Of a stretch of 64,000 bases of DNA, positions 27,398 to 34,449 are shown one piece after another. The position numbers and the translations under genes were made by a program. The DNA is taken from contig NZ_CP109994.1 in assembly GCF_025947065.1 (NCBI RefSeq), positions 2,666,001 to 2,730,000 on the forward strand. The letters run 5' to 3'. This DNA comes from Flavobacterium sp. N1736 (GTDB taxonomy: Bacteria; Bacteroidota; Bacteroidia; Flavobacteriales; Flavobacteriaceae). Numbering within the stretch: the first letter of the stretch is position 1; each line of letters opens with the position of its first letter. Under the pieces are notes generated by a model, which ran no database searches, was not told the DNA's origin, and saw only the letters and a list, made by a program, of their open reading frames with translations.

Positions 27398-29557
27398 ATG
27401 AAAAAAATATACTTTACCCTATTGATTATAGGGCAATGTGTCTTAGCACAAAACAAAGTCGAAAAAGACACAACCAAATCACAGGAACTCGAAAACGTTT
27501 TTATAACAGCCAATCGTACAGCAACTTTACGTAAAGAAACCCCTGTGGCAATTAGTAAAATAACAGCTAAAACAATCAACGAAACCAAAGCTACAGCCGT
27601 TTACGAAATCATTAATAAAACGCCGGGAGTTTTAATGGTTAATTTAGGAAACGAACAGCACATGATGTCGATTCGTCAGCCAATGACAACCAATGCATAT
27701 TATTTATATTTAGAAGACGGTTTGCCAATTCGCCCAATGGGAATATTCAATCACAATGCTTTACTTGAAATTAATCAATATAATTTGCAAAGTATTGAAG
27801 TTGTAAAAGGTCCGGTTTCTTCTTTATACGGTCCTGAAGCTGTTGGCGGAACGATCAATTTAATTTCACTGAAACCACCTGTAGATCCTGAATTTAAATT
27901 TGGTATTCAGGCAGACAATTATGGTTACAGAAGATTTCAGGCAGCTGGTGGTGCAACCATCGGAAAAGTTGGTTTTCATATTGCCGGAATTTCAAGCTTG
28001 CAGGAAAATGGCTGGATGACTTATTCTGATTATAACAAAGATAATTTGAACGCCAGAATCGATTACAACATCTCACCTTCTACCCGATTGATTAGTAATA
28101 CGATGTATGGAAAATATTACTCTGACATGAGCGGAACGGTTGACGAGCAAGCTTTTAACAACAGAACTTATAAAAGCACAACCGATTTTACTTATAGAAA
28201 ATCTGATGCTTTGAGAACAAGATTAACATTAGAACATGATTGGAACAGCAATTCAAGCAGTTATATTACAGGATATTTACGTGACAATAAATTAGGTCAA
28301 AATCCTTCGTACGGAATAAAATGGAGTCCAACTGTAAACCCAACAACAGCGAAAGGGGAAGTAAATTCAAATAATTTTAAAAGTTATGGCGCCATTGGAC
28401 AACATACTCAAAAATTTGATTTCTTAAATGCTAAACTTGTTGCGGGAGCATTATACGATTATTCTCCGGTAACATATTGGTCTTATGTTATTGATTTAAA
28501 AGCCAATTTAAATCCTGGAGAAGCAGGAAAACAAACGGTAGATTATTATGAAATTATTGCCGAACATCCGAATTCTAAATTAGCTGATTATACTGCTGAT
28601 ATCTTTAATTCAGCCGGATATGCACAATTGAGTTTTAATCCATTTGAAAAATTAGTGATCACAATTGGCGGACGTTACGACAATATGAAAGTTAATTACG
28701 ATAATGCTTTAGACCAATCTACCGGAAGCAAAGTTTACGACAAAGCTACTTTTAAAGCCGGTGCAAACTACAATCCGTTTGAGTTTGGAGGTTTTTATGG
28801 TAATTATTCACAAGGTTTTGCGCCTCCCGGAATCACATCTATTTTTAGAACAAAACCAGGAACTGGCGGAACAACCGGCGTTCCTGCTGATTTTTATTAT
28901 AATCTGGAACCAGCGACTTTTGATAACTACGAAGTTGGCGGATGGCTTTCCTTCCTTCAAAATAAATTAAATTTTGATTATGCCTTTTATTATATGGAGG
29001 GAGAAAATGAACTTTTAAGCGTAAAACTTCCCGACAATACAACCGATTATCGTTCTGCCGGAGAAACGCGTCATAAAGGAATTGAGTTTGGCGCTTCATA
29101 CCGACCATCAAAACAATTCAACATTCGCTTTGGCGGAACTTATGCACAACACACTTATATTGATTTCAAACTTTCAGATAAACCAAGCGATCCTGTTCAG
29201 GATTTAAACGGCAAAGAAATGCCTGCTGCACCAAAATGGTCCGGAAATTCAGAAGTAAGTTATTATCCAAACTGGCTTCCAAATCTAAGAACATCCATAG
29301 AATGGCAGCTTGTGGGAAGTTACTATCAGGATCAAATCAACACCGTAAAATATGATGGTTATAATATATTCAACGCAAGAGTTGGCTACCAATGGAAAGG
29401 GATCGAAGTTTACGGAAACGTACTTAATTTAACCGATAAATTATATGCCTACAATGTTTCAAGAGCCAATACAACAAATGCGCAGCCAACATATACAGCA
29501 GCGGCGCCAAGAACTTTTGTATTTGGAATTCAATATAATTTTTCATTAAAAAAATAA
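27398..29557 (+). CDS. TonB-dependent outer membrane receptor
   Basis: 719 residues with signal peptide ending QCVLAQ. Plug domain about 40-150: ETPVAISKITAKTI, YEIINKTPGVLMV, YYLYLEDGLPI, SIEVVKGPVSSLYGPEAVGG TINLI. The barrel follows and ends FVFGIQYNFSLKK. It lacks an N-terminal carboxypeptidase-like domain and a SusD partner, so it is of siderophore/metal type rather than polysaccharide type. The PepSY gene downstream and the Cys protein upstream support uptake of iron or copper. Confidence 0.93.
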   Translation: MKKIYFTLLIIGQCVLAQNKVEKDTTKSQELENVFITANRTATLRKETPVAISKITAKTINETKATAVYEIINKTPGVLMVNLGNEQHMMSIRQPMTTNAYYLYLEDGLPIRPMGIFNHNALLEINQYNLQSIEVVKGPVSSLYGPEAVGGTINLISLKPPVDPEFKFGIQADNYGYRRFQAAGGATIGKVGFHIAGISSLQENGWMTYSDYNKDNLNARIDYNISPSTRLISNTMYGKYYSDMSGTVDEQAFNNRTYKSTTDFTYRKSDALRTRLTLEHDWNSNSSSYITGYLRDNKLGQNPSYGIKWSPTVNPTTAKGEVNSNNFKSYGAIGQHTQKFDFLNAKLVAGALYDYSPVTYWSYVIDLKANLNPGEAGKQTVDYYEIIAEHPNSKLADYTADIFNSAGYAQLSFNPFEKLVITIGGRYDNMKVNYDNALDQSTGSKVYDKATFKAGANYNPFEFGGFYGNYSQGFAPPGITSIFRTKPGTGGTTGVPADFYYNLEPATFDNYEVGGWLSFLQNKLNFDYAFYYMEGENELLSVKLPDNTTDYRSAGETRHKGIEFGASYRPSKQFNIRFGGTYAQHTYIDFKLSDKPSDPVQDLNGKEMPAAPKWSGNSEVSYYPNWLPNLRTSIEWQLVGSYYQDQINTVKYDGYNIFNARVGYQWKGIEVYGNVLNLTDKLYAYNVSRANTTNAQPTYTAAAPRTFVFGIQYNFSLKK

Positions 29558-29558
29558 G

Positions 29559-29704
29559 TTTTTGCCACAGATTCCACAGATTAAAAGAATTATAAGAATG
29601 TTTAAATTGAACCATTAAGACATTAAGTTTCATTAAGCAAAACTTTACTTTCTTAATCTCTTAATGGTAAAAAATCATTTTAATCGTGAAATCTGTGGCA
29701 AAAA
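29559..29704. repeat. CCACAGATT inverted repeat, copy 1
   Basis: Outer arms TTTTTGCCACAGATT (29559-29573) and AATCTGTGGCAAAAA (29690-29704) are perfect 15-bp inverted repeats. Inside, ACCATTAAGACATTAAG and CTTAATCTCTTAATGGT form a second nested stem. It begins two bases after the TonB receptor stop. A smaller relative lies at 45726. Confidence 0.85.
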
Positions 29705-29720
29705 ATAATAATTATTTAGA

Positions 29721-29794
29721 AGCTAATCCCGCTCTCGGCTTTATCTTTTTATGGCAGAAAAAGCCATAAAAAGGATATCGCCTCCATCGGGGCT
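29721..29794. repeat. Palindromic intergenic element before the PepSY gene
   Basis: CTCTCGGCTTTATCTTTTTA TGGCAGAAAAAGCCATAAAA AGGATATCGCC: arms TATCTTTTTATGGC and GCCATAAAAAGGATA with an A-rich loop. The in-frame ATG at 29751 falls inside this hairpin, a reason to reject it as the PepSY start. Confidence 0.6.
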
Positions 29795-29807
29795 AAAAAA
29801 CCTAACA

Positions 29808-31403
29808 ATGAGCAAAGAAATAAAAGAAAAAAAGTCTAAAAAGAAAGATTCTAAAATCGTCAAGAAAATCAAACAGTATATGTACAAGTGGCATCGCACA
29901 ATTGGTTTGATTACGATTATTCCCGTAATCTTCTGGACATTATCAGGATTGATGCATCCATTTATGGCGCATTTTTTCAAGCCTGAAATTGCACATGACA
30001 AACTGGAACAGCAAATTATTGATAAAAATCAATTGCATTTTTCGATTCAGGAAGTTTTACAAAAAAACGAAATCAGCCAATTCAAGAATTTTAGAATCGT
30101 TTCCTTTAACTACGCAACTTTTTATCAGGTAAAAACCATTTTTGGAGAATTGTTGTATTTTGATACTTCAAATGCAAAAAAACTGGAAAACGGAGATCAA
30201 AAATATGCAGAATGGCTTTCCAGATATTTTTTAGACGATCAAAAAAGTGCCGTAAAAAAGAGCGAAGTTGTTACTGAATTTACTTCGCAATACAAATATG
30301 TAAATCGCTATTTGCCGGTTTATAAACTTAGTTTTGATCGCGATGATGCTATGGAGGTTTATGTAGAAACTTCTTCGGGCAAACTGGCAACGTACAATCC
30401 TACTTCAAGACAAGCTTTTATTTGGTTCTTTGATACTTTTCATAACTGGTCGTTTATCGACGCCATTACCAATAACAGCATCCGAATTATTACGATGATT
30501 TTCTTGTTATCTATTATTGGTTTTTCTGCCTTGAGCGGTATTTTAATTTATGGTTTATTATGGAAACAATTCAAAAAAACCGATAGTATACAACCTAAAA
30601 AAGGACTTAGAAAATACCATCGCCAAATTGGAATCTGGGTTTCACTTTTTACCTTAACTTTTGCTTTTAGCGGCGGTTATCACGCCACCACAAAGTGGAC
30701 GCCTTACACTTTATCGCAAATGGTTTACGAACCTACATTTAAAACGAAAGAAATTTCTTTGGCAAATAATGCGCTGGATTTAGACTGGAGTCGTTTTCAA
30801 AACGCAAGCATTATTACTTTAAACGACACTACTTATTTCCGTTGTCAATTATTCGAAAAAGGAAAATTTAAAACGTCAAAAGTAGATTCAGGTTCAAAAT
30901 GGAATAAAAAAGAAGATAAAAAATCTGAAGTCGTTTATATCAATGCAACAACCAATAAAGTTACTCCGAATATTGATCTTGAATATGCCGAATTTCTAGC
31001 TTATTATTTTACAGATGGAGCGCCAAAAGCAGCTTGTTGCGAAATGGTCGAAAGTTCTGATGAACCGGAAATATCTTTAGAAAATGCAAAACTCTTAGAA
31101 TCTAAAGTTTTAACTGATTTTGAAAGTAGAGAATATGGCTTTGTCAACAAAAGATTGCCCGTTGTAAAATTGGCGTATGACACTCCCGAAAAAACAACTT
31201 ATTTTATAGAAACAGCCACTTCAAGATTAGCAGCCGTAATTAAAAGTTCTGACATGGTCGAGGGTTATTCGTTTGCTATTCTGCACAAATTTTTATTTAT
31301 GGATTGGGCAGGAAAAAACATTCGCGATCTAACAATGGTTTTGGCAGCTTTGACAATTCTGATTGTTAGTATTCTGGGATTTATTTTGTTTTTGAAAAAA
31401 TAA
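29808..31403 (+). CDS. PepSY domain membrane protein
   Basis: 531 residues from ATG 29808. Basic N-terminus, then helices at WHRTIGLITIIPVIFWTLSG (about 29), SIRIITMIFLLSIIGFSALSG, HRQIGIWVSLFTLTFAFSG and LTMVLAALTILIVSILGFIL, the four-helix plan of PepSY_TM proteins, with two PepSY-like periplasmic stretches between (KYVNRYLPVYKLSFDRDDAM; EYGFVNKRLPVVKLAYDTPE). Such proteins accompany TonB siderophore receptors and may reduce or pass on metal. GAPKAACCEM has an adjacent Cys pair, a possible ligand. Confidence 0.88.
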   Translation: MSKEIKEKKSKKKDSKIVKKIKQYMYKWHRTIGLITIIPVIFWTLSGLMHPFMAHFFKPEIAHDKLEQQIIDKNQLHFSIQEVLQKNEISQFKNFRIVSFNYATFYQVKTIFGELLYFDTSNAKKLENGDQKYAEWLSRYFLDDQKSAVKKSEVVTEFTSQYKYVNRYLPVYKLSFDRDDAMEVYVETSSGKLATYNPTSRQAFIWFFDTFHNWSFIDAITNNSIRIITMIFLLSIIGFSALSGILIYGLLWKQFKKTDSIQPKKGLRKYHRQIGIWVSLFTLTFAFSGGYHATTKWTPYTLSQMVYEPTFKTKEISLANNALDLDWSRFQNASIITLNDTTYFRCQLFEKGKFKTSKVDSGSKWNKKEDKKSEVVYINATTNKVTPNIDLEYAEFLAYYFTDGAPKAACCEMVESSDEPEISLENAKLLESKVLTDFESREYGFVNKRLPVVKLAYDTPEKTTYFIETATSRLAAVIKSSDMVEGYSFAILHKFLFMDWAGKNIRDLTMVLAALTILIVSILGFILFLKK

Positions 31404-32236: not shown

Positions 32237-33205
32237 TCAACGCGCTTCGTATTCAACAAAAGTATTATTGAATTTTGCATGCAGAATGTTTACCTGCTTA
32301 AAATCTATTTCTAAAGTTTCTTCTTTAAAAGAATCACCTGTAAAAGCGGCATTTTCATTTTTAGAATGTTTCGTCAAACGTTCATACATTTTATCAAGCT
32401 CATCATTTGCATAATCAACATTAATAAAGGAGATAAATTTTTGTATCACATTTTTCATTCCTTCATTATAATTCAATTTCGTAACATTTTGATCTGTTTT
32501 GTAAAAGTTCAGGAATTCCTGAAAATATTTCTCTAAAACCAATGCTTTGTATTGATGAAAACTAACTTCACTCATTTCTTTATCTGTAATTCCAAAGACG
32601 CTCGATGGCAATAAATTTGGAACCATATGCATTCCTGTCAATTTTTGATGCGATTTTAAAACCTCAACCGGATTTCTGTAAAGCAGTGCAAAAGGTGTTT
32701 CAGGAAAATTTGTTCTTAAAAAACTGGCATTAAATATGTGCCAGGCATCCAGTTTTACGATTAAATGCTTTTGCTCCGGAAATCTTTTTTGACCCAATAA
32801 TCTTATTACCGCTTTTAAAAGAGTGCTTTTTTGATCTAAATCGAATTTTTTGCTTCTTAAAATTTCATCGATAATTGGTACTTCAGAAATCATGATATTT
32901 TCAGCAGAAGTTGCCAAAGACTGACTCAACATCGTAGAACCACATCGTGATACATGAAAAACCAATGATTTTAATTCGACCGAGATCAATTCATTAGACC
33001 AATCGAGAAGATTTTCTACAGTTGTTATTACTTTAAATGGTCTCGAATTATTGGGGTGGCTTCTGCATTTTGAAATTGTTTCATCAAAAAAAGGTTCAGC
33101 ATATTTTATATCTGCCAGATAAATCCATTCAAAATAAACTTTGTTATCTTTTTCTATCAACTTATACGGAATCCAATTTGCAAGAGGATGATTTATATTT
33201 TCCAT
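32237..33205 (-). CDS. Sulfotransferase family protein
   Basis: 322 residues. VFHVSRCGSTMLSQSLA (about 83-99) is the 5'-phosphosulfate loop and FALLYRNPVEVLKSHQKL (about 173-190) the 3'-phosphate-binding segment, so PAPS is the expected donor. Residues 1-75 form an extra domain before the core. The acceptor is unknown. It is the last gene of a three-gene unit with APS kinase and an Asp/Asn-type hydroxylase (gaps of 17 and 9 bases), which suggests O-sulfation of a newly made hydroxyl group. Confidence 0.87.
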   Translation of the reverse strand: MENINHPLANWIPYKLIEKDNKVYFEWIYLADIKYAEPFFDETISKCRSHPNNSRPFKVITTVENLLDWSNELISVELKSLVFHVSRCGSTMLSQSLATSAENIMISEVPIIDEILRSKKFDLDQKSTLLKAVIRLLGQKRFPEQKHLIVKLDAWHIFNASFLRTNFPETPFALLYRNPVEVLKSHQKLTGMHMVPNLLPSSVFGITDKEMSEVSFHQYKALVLEKYFQEFLNFYKTDQNVTKLNYNEGMKNVIQKFISFINVDYANDELDKMYERLTKHSKNENAAFTGDSFKEETLEIDFKQVNILHAKFNNTFVEYEAR

Positions 33206-33214
33206 TTTTTTGTT

Positions 33215-33898
33215 TTATTCTGCTAATAAATTGGCTATAATTTTTGCTCCGGCTTCTGATGGATTTAGAGAAAGTTCTGCAATAATCTGTTGTTTCATTT
33301 CATCTGAATACGGAGCTTCCTGATGAGTGTAATTAATATCAAAACCCATTTCTGCAAATAATTTATCAGACCAATCATTTCTTATACAATCAAGCGTAAG
33401 ATGAATACGCGGTTCTGTACTTTTATTTGCTACGCTATGCGGAAGTTGAAAATTGGCGTACCAACATTCACCCATTTTCATGGGAACGAGTTTTTTATCC
33501 ACATAAAAAAACACCTCAGGATTCGTAATAATTGGAATATGAATTCTAAAAAACCCATCTTCATAAGAAGTGTCATTATCTACATGTTCCTTTATTTCGC
33601 TTCCGCCTCCTAATCTAAGCAATCGTACCGCTTCTTTTTCGCATTCGAACCAATCCATAATTTCCTTAAAATAAGGGCAGCGATCCAGCAAATCAGTATT
33701 TTTATATTCGGCATTTGCAAAAGAGGTAATGTCATTTATTAAACCAGACTGCGATCTTAAAGAAACACTTGTCCAATTGCCTTCGTAACGATTGGTATTA
33801 AAATGAGGCGTCCATAGATTATCTTCGCATATTGCGAGTTCTTTTTGTAATTTATCTATTGAAAAGGAAATCGGAAGTTTGCTGGAAGAGGGATTCAT
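33215..33898 (-). CDS. Aspartyl/asparaginyl beta-hydroxylase family protein
   Basis: 227 residues of the 2-oxoglutarate/Fe(II) fold. Iron ligands are the HVD of IKEHVDNDT (His and Asp, about 114-116) and the His of LPHSVANKS (about 165); the Arg in EPRIHLTLDC (about 174) would bind 2-oxoglutarate. The last 40 residues (HQEAPYSDEMKQQIIAEL..) form a short helical tail. Substrate may be a peptide, protein or amino acid. It lies between the kinase that makes PAPS and the sulfotransferase. Confidence 0.85.
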   Translation of the reverse strand: MNPSSSKLPISFSIDKLQKELAICEDNLWTPHFNTNRYEGNWTSVSLRSQSGLINDITSFANAEYKNTDLLDRCPYFKEIMDWFECEKEAVRLLRLGGGSEIKEHVDNDTSYEDGFFRIHIPIITNPEVFFYVDKKLVPMKMGECWYANFQLPHSVANKSTEPRIHLTLDCIRNDWSDKLFAEMGFDINYTHQEAPYSDEMKQQIIAELSLNPSEAGAKIIANLLAE

Positions 33899-33915
33899 AA
33901 GTTTTTAAAATTAGA

Positions 33916-34449
33916 TTAGGCCAAACCGGATATATTGTCAATAATAAAATTATAAAGTTTATTAGTCGAGAAAGGAATGGTTTCAAAATCGGTTTTTAAT
34001 ACTAAATCTGCACTTGACGGAATTTCAAAAACATCGCTTATTCCTGTAAAATTATTTATTTTATTGATATCATTATCAGGCAGTAATGCTTTTTTATACA
34101 ATCCTTTCGGATCTCTTTTAATCAAATTATTAATCGAACAATCGAGAAATACGGTTCTGACAAATTCATGCGATCTCAATTCATTTCTCAGGTTTTCGTA
34201 TGGATTTATTACGGACATCAAAACAATTGTTTCTTCTCCGATAAAATTTCGCCCAACATTAAAAAGACGTCTGACATTTTCGCATCTGTCATCTTTAGAA
34301 AATCCTAAATCTTTACAAATCGTTTTTCTGTAAACATCGCCATCAATTATTTCGGCTTTATACCCATTTTCAATCAACAAATGCCGAACATTTTCTGCCA
34401 ATGTTGTTTTTCCTGAACCTGATAATCCTGTAAATTGTATCAAAATCAT
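33916..34449 (-). CDS. cysC: Adenylyl-sulfate (APS) kinase
   Basis: 177 residues. P-loop GLSGSGKTT (about 8-16), DGDVYRKTICKDLGFSKDDR CENVRR (about 38-63), VINPYENLRNELR, RDPKGLYKKAL and FTGISDVFEIP follow the CysC pattern in order, so it should phosphorylate APS to PAPS. No ATP sulfurylase or PAPS reductase gene is next to it, so it does not belong to a sulfate-assimilation cluster but appears devoted to the sulfotransferase two genes downstream. First gene of the unit. Confidence 0.9.
   Translation of the reverse strand: MILIQFTGLSGSGKTTLAENVRHLLIENGYKAEIIDGDVYRKTICKDLGFSKDDRCENVRRLFNVGRNFIGEETIVLMSVINPYENLRNELRSHEFVRTVFLDCSINNLIKRDPKGLYKKALLPDNDINKINNFTGISDVFEIPSSADLVLKTDFETIPFSTNKLYNFIIDNISGLA

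Follow-up and report, generated by a model that had tools for sequence, protein, structure and literature searches.

A conserved gene trio for predicted hydroxylation and sulfation in Flavobacterium and its association with phage-tail-collar-domain proteins

The saxitoxin (sxt) clusters of cyanobacteria include sxtO for an adenylylsulfate kinase, sxtN for a sulfotransferase (a gene that is disrupted in the strain described) and sxtX for a hydroxylation (PMC2679770). A similar combination is found in Flavobacterium sp. N1736, within a stretch of 64,000 nucleotides (contig NZ_CP109994.1, positions 2,666,001 to 2,730,000) that is referred to here as the window and in which feature positions are counted. 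Three adjoining genes encode an adenosine 5'-phosphosulfate (APS) kinase, an Asp/Asn-hydroxylase-like enzyme and a sulfotransferase of the type that uses 3'-phosphoadenosine 5'-phosphosulfate (PAPS), denoted APSK, HYD and ST. An earlier note on this DNA knew of no described pathway with just this trio; genes of the three kinds do stand together in the saxitoxin clusters (PMC2679770). These clusters nonetheless differ from the trio, since they serve an alkaloid pathway with many further genes and, in the sections of the source at hand, neither an Asp/Asn-hydroxylase-like enzyme nor a phage-tail-collar-domain (collar) protein is named (PMC2679770). The reading favoured here, with confidence at about the midpoint, is that the trio forms a dedicated hydroxylate-then-sulfate tailoring unit, the acceptor of which is most likely a collar protein or a product assembled on collars.

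The three genes lie on the minus strand with gaps of 17 bp (APSK-HYD) and 9 bp (HYD-ST), and their coordinates, profile matches and conserved residues bear out the arrangement and the three family assignments of the earlier note. APSK (33916-34449, minus strand, 177 aa) is the sole PF01583 match of the genome (1.1e-39) and reaches 150.7 bits against the NCBIfam model TIGR00455 (apsK), above the cut-off of 138.7. Its GLSGSGKT motif (residues 8-15, 34405-34428, minus strand), read off the sequence, is taken to be the Walker A motif or P-loop, and the protein is predicted to make PAPS. HYD (33215-33898, minus strand, 227 aa) is assigned to the Asp_Arg_Hydrox family (PF05118, 4.6e-18, 66 bits, cut-off 22.6) and is thereby an Fe(II)/2-oxoglutarate (2OG) oxygenase. 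Alignment places its HxD motif (H105 and D107) at 33578-33586, H154 at 33437-33439 and R164 at 33407-33409, all on the minus strand, with no variation in these residues across 12 sequences; presumably, H105, D107 and H154 constitute the HxD...H iron triad and R164 the 2OG-binding arginine. The HYD fold is shared with L-proline cis-4-hydroxylase and AspH (PF05118), enzymes that carry the HxD...H...R residues. Identity is 18-24% to proline hydroxylases and 13-14% to AspH, and the gene partners differ, so that another substrate is expected for HYD. ST (32237-33205, minus strand, 322 aa) gives a weak match to PF13469 (Sulfotransfer_3; 0.0017, 19.1 bits), under the cut-off of 27. Nonetheless, its SRCGST loop (residues 86-91, 32933-32950, minus strand, placed by alignment), which we take to bind the phosphosulfate, does not vary across 11 sequences, and the predicted fold agrees with the conserved loop in indicating a PAPS sulfotransferase. 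Relatives of ST at loci L109 (37% identical) and L264 exceed the PF13469 cut-off, while that at L113 sits at it. Tyrosylprotein sulfotransferases are counted among the closest known systems, as is the bacterial RaxST.

Searches with HYD, using one genome per species, yielded 62 loci, 52 belonging to the genus or near it (L055-L106, of which L074 and L077 carry other genus names and L097 is that of F. johnsoniae CI04) and 10 lying outside. Although retrieved by HYD alone, all 52 hold APSK, HYD and ST, a completeness that exceeds chance, at a site flanked by purB/SIR2-like genes and a SpoU methylase gene. In a separate presence/absence set of 199 genomes of the window's genus, the distribution is nested, with APSK following ST and ST falling within HYD. 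ST is present in 26 genomes (a 27th match, in G315, spans 40 residues at 3e-4 and was excluded), and exactly these 26 also have an APSK with 71% identity or more; a further nine genomes have more distant APSK matches only and 164 have no APSK match. HYD occurs in 44 genomes, including every ST genome, which amounts to 26/26 of those with ST compared with 18/173 of those without (p 4e-21; this and the other p values given here carry no tree-based correction and are inflated by relatedness). As ST is always accompanied by some HYD in the genus, the pattern matches the prediction of a hydroxylate-then-sulfate order. The linked copy, HYD1, is intact in 20 of the 26 ST genomes. G302, G306, G399, G459, G472 and G475 have no intact linked HYD1 and carry a second HYD (~46% identity) elsewhere, which in G475 lies just upstream of APSK while a remnant of HYD1 persists between APSK and ST.

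Outside the genus, both full-length matches of the ST profile adjoin HYD (L264 in G589 and L265 in G760), a locus count that leaves aside weak ST matches in G538, G733 and G789. ST also adjoins HYD in four of the ten HYD-retrieved loci, namely those of Emticicia (L109), a Bacteroidetes metagenome-assembled genome (MAG; L111), Collimonas (L113) and a Burkholderiaceae MAG (L115). The co-occurrence of the three families that the earlier note had proposed as a check is found in the genus and its close kin; outside the genus, APSK is near HYD-ST in one of six loci (Emticicia). The plasmid relatives of ST are three in number, all distant, and the phage relatives of HYD belong to a single Mycobacterium phage that is represented by two records (33% identity over 43%). 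Hydroxylase and sulfotransferase are also joined in single chains. In Diaphorobacter, a HYD domain (HYD profile, 1.5e-32) is fused to a PF13469 sulfotransferase, and a HYD-PF13469 fusion in Asticcacaulis is seen as an open frame exceeding the annotated gene. Of 737 homologues of the Diaphorobacter fusion, 120 were listed, and 117 of these contain both PF05118 and PF13469, in a search whose length window of ~350-1100 aa favours fusions; PF16261 (TIGR03032) is additionally present in many of these proteins. The fusions differ from the trio in that the window's ST profile does not detect the Diaphorobacter sulfotransferase domain and no collar gene occurs in the two fusion loci examined (L367 and L369). 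Coupling between HYD and ST, served by a dedicated PAPS supply, is well supported and considered probable.

The surroundings of distant HYDs feature tandem collar proteins of ~180 aa (PF07484), a formyltransferase-like protein, Peripla_BP_6 and a small HExxH protein. In the genome of the window, three tandem collar genes precede genes for a Peripla_BP_6-like, a formyltransferase-like and a giant SprB-repeat protein, in an operon ~1 Mb from the trio (C1 1.64 vs 2.70 Mb). In G815 the gene order is APSK-HYD-ST, one opposite gene, collar and SprB-repeat protein, the latter carrying a type IX C-terminal sorting domain. In G000 a formyltransferase-like gene neighbours the collars, and in Emticicia one separates ST from APSK. 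Away from the canonical site, 8 of the 37 loci have a collar gene within 6-10 kb on either side of HYD (L111, L113, L184, L186, L264, L265, L266 and L368), of which three are from the genus, three from other Bacteroidota and one each from Collimonas and Pseudoalteromonas. These loci were retrieved via HYD or ST and not via collars; the p value for linkage was computed at 8/33, before four collar-less loci were added, and four of the 37, all from Aequorivita, closely resemble one another.

Genome-wide co-occurrence points in the same direction. Collar genes were found in 81 of the 199 genus genomes, comprising 42/44 with HYD compared with 39/155 without (p 5e-18) and including all 26 ST genomes, and the Peripla_BP_6-like gene is present in 27/44 compared with 6/155. 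Among 80 genomes drawn from other genera in the same family, collars occur in 17/18 with HYD and 9/62 without (p 5e-10), or in 16/17 and 7/45 when genomes of at least 2.9 Mb are considered, and both genera with one HYD-positive and one HYD-negative member concur (G284/G073 and G269/G047). The HYD-positive set in this comparison comprises 18 of 21 HYD matches (G127, which belongs to the genus, the weak G147 and the genome of the window were left out), nine of them being distant (28-42%, with the match covering part of the query), and the HYD-negative set comprises 62 of 278 genomes, taken in list order with some skipped to total 80. The collar system is supported by these data as the home of the HYD-ST unit, and the tie constitutes a new lead beyond the window's own genes. 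The association is invisible from the window alone and emerged from genome comparison.

The C-terminus of the collar proteins was considered as a candidate target of HYD. C-termini were taken from 73 of the 81 collar-bearing genus genomes, not every copy per genome being included, and the eight left out have weak matches (1e-10 to 3e-6) and all lack HYD. Within this set, 72/92 collars end in -RN in HYD-positive genomes compared with 12/56 in HYD-negative ones; per genome, an -RN collar is present in 42/42 compared with 9/31 (Fisher p 8e-12). Eight of these nine HYD-negative genomes have no PF05118 match, and the ninth, G363, has a PF05118 protein missed by the HYD query. In the HYD-linked loci, Asn is the last residue encoded by all 15 collar genes, in 14 cases as part of -RN, and each of the eight loci has an -RN collar, those of Collimonas and Pseudoalteromonas included. 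Strong as it is in the genus, the signal is not replicated in other genera, where -RN collars occur in 11/17 genomes with HYD and 4/9 without (p 0.42), or in 7/8 and 4/9 when the closer HYDs alone are taken (p 0.13). The C-terminal Asn as HYD target was dropped for this reason, and the site remains unproven. C-terminal Asn may instead be the mark of a collar subfamily. That HYD beta-hydroxylates the C-terminal Asn of collars (...FPSRN-COOH) and ST sulfates the resulting hydroxyl, giving SprB-associated collars a sulfated terminus, is therefore regarded as improbable.

Gene families, residues, trio conservation, nested distribution, fusions and HYD-collar co-occurrence and linkage were all computed directly, and on this basis a pathway may be proposed. 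CysDN, encoded elsewhere in the genome, would make APS, which APSK would convert to PAPS. HYD, using Fe(II), 2-oxoglutarate and O2, would hydroxylate an amino-acid side chain, and the hydroxyl left by HYD would then be sulfated by ST. The acceptor would be a collar protein (~180 aa) of the collar/SprB operon or something assembled on collars. The activities of the enzymes, the order of the steps and any role of the trio in the cell surface or adhesion are predictions. A hydroxylate-then-sulfate pathway had been put forward in the earlier note; as a prediction it is well supported by genomics in so far as the trio stays together, ST is never found without HYD in the genus and fusions occur, and the collar protein as acceptor can be suggested with moderate confidence.

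Several observations weigh against this reading. HYD is not tied to ST in the way that ST is to HYD, as it occurs in the 18 genus genomes without ST mentioned above, and this part of the earlier proposal is not borne out. No HYD occurs in the stretch around any of the three remote STs (24-26% identity) from Azospirillum, Agrobacterium and Tistrella, though 2OG-oxygenase-type genes are annotated near those of Azospirillum and Agrobacterium. The ST fold scores do not set protein sulfotransferases apart from other sulfotransferase classes, and the nearest solved relatives of HYD by sequence are proline hydroxylases. Regarding the collars, none is near the trio in any of the 52 canonical-site loci, which is the arrangement of the window, and 29 of the 37 other HYD loci have no collar within 6-10 kb each side. 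Collars without HYD are found in 39 of the 155 HYD-negative genus genomes, while HYD without a collar match is seen in G446, G452 and G105. The relatedness that inflates the p values and the failure of the C-terminal signal in other genera count on the same side.

A different explanation would be that APSK is an ordinary sulfate assimilation gene standing beside two unrelated genes. APS kinase is widespread as an enzyme of assimilation, and CysH exceeds two models named phosphoadenylyl-sulfate reductase (NF002537 and TIGR00434), which fits such a role and weighs against a trio with its own purpose. CysH is also above TIGR02055 (APS reductase) and below TIGR02057 (PAPS reductase), and possesses the ECC and CxxC cysteines that mark APS reductases; as it also exceeds the other two models, its identification as an APS reductase depends on TIGR02055 and the cysteine pairs. 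As the earlier note correctly observed, no sulfate assimilation gene accompanies the trio. The cysH-cysD-cysN locus lies apart from it, near C1 4.451-4.454 Mb, CysN has 414 aa and no fused kinase, and APSK, the single APS kinase match of its genome, is of a type confined to the 26 ST genomes and so follows ST, not assimilation genes. Since an APSK match is missing from 164 of the 199 genomes of the genus, assimilation probably proceeds from APS, leaving the PAPS of the trio for sulfation, and the trio's APSK is probably not needed for assimilation. As for a second PAPS user, the genome has no PF13469 match, other sulfotransferase families being outside the search; this is weak evidence, because the PF13469 model misses ST itself. 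An assimilation role for APSK is considered very improbable.

The remaining explanations retain sulfation and change the acceptor. The trio could make a sulfated small molecule, such as a free amino acid or another metabolite, that is secreted or loaded on the surface, with the collar tie reflecting shared use or lifestyle. This is a real possibility, if a distinctly less likely one than the collar-directed unit, since no biosynthetic scaffold or ORF resembling a nonribosomal peptide synthetase is recognised by eye around the trio (few ORFs were scanned) and the HYD-collar linkage recurs across Bacteroidota, beta- and gammaproteobacteria. The true target could also be a product made along with the collars, either the giant SprB-repeat surface protein or a glycan of the cell surface, the collar being a mere neighbour: SprB-repeat proteins come after the collar genes in G000 and G815, a protein that by eye we assume to be filamentous-haemagglutinin-like stands ahead of the collar in Collimonas, and the ST locus of Azospirillum sits among glycosyltransferase and O-antigen genes. 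Such a surface protein is exported, as judged by eye and from the type IX sorting domain in G815, whereas HYD, ST, APSK and the collars show no obvious signal peptide at their start by eye, and this alternative is deemed unlikely. Tailoring of a lasso-like ribosomal peptide is less likely still. It would agree with the HYD-ST-collar locus L264 in G589, which includes PqqD, transglutaminase-like (lasso B2-like) and asparagine-synthase genes, and with the Azospirillum locus, where PqqD, 'lasso peptide biosynthesis B2' and asparagine synthase-related genes are present. Beside the trio in the window, however, no lasso-type gene was recognised (neighbours by eye: purB, SIR2-like, SpoU methylase and PepSY-like; scanning covered the trio and the methylase). 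By eye, none is recognised in L265, L266, L111 and L113 either, where most ORFs are unscanned.

Further features of these loci may be recorded. Collar, PqqD, lasso-B2-like and asparagine-synthase genes share loci in both L261 (Azospirillum) and L264 (Bacteroidota, another family). A ~170-aa HEAGH (zincin-like) protein adjoins HYD in 15 of 27 HYD loci (L107, L110, L111, L179-L184, L186-L190 and L197); the one scanned has no Pfam match, and the protein is possibly a partner protease or chaperone. The genome of the window has a second collar triplet (L229, C1:3898000-3916000) with other neighbours and the C-termini PPRS and SPT, which resembles that of the HYD-negative genome G340 (L240). In L232, L234, L242 and L243, all from HYD-positive genomes, a gene that by eye is methyltransferase-like takes the usual place of the formyltransferase-like gene by the collar. 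Within the window, TonB-dependent-receptor-like and PepSY-like genes (by eye) lie on the plus strand at 27398-31403, beyond the SpoU methylase gene.

To our knowledge, sulfated bacterial proteins have rarely been described. Among the literature matches listed, nothing was found on this trio, nor anything joining bacterial collar-domain proteins with such hydroxylases or sulfotransferases, and in four papers none of the terms 'sulfotransferase', 'hydroxylase' and 'collar' was found (PMC9950754, PMC10936215, PMC12635249, PMC12618676). If the link between HYD and the collars is true, it would represent a maturation pathway for collar proteins and would suggest a function for the widespread family of HYD-sulfotransferase fusions. 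Tractable Flavobacterium strains would then also allow a role of protein sulfation at the surface to be tested.
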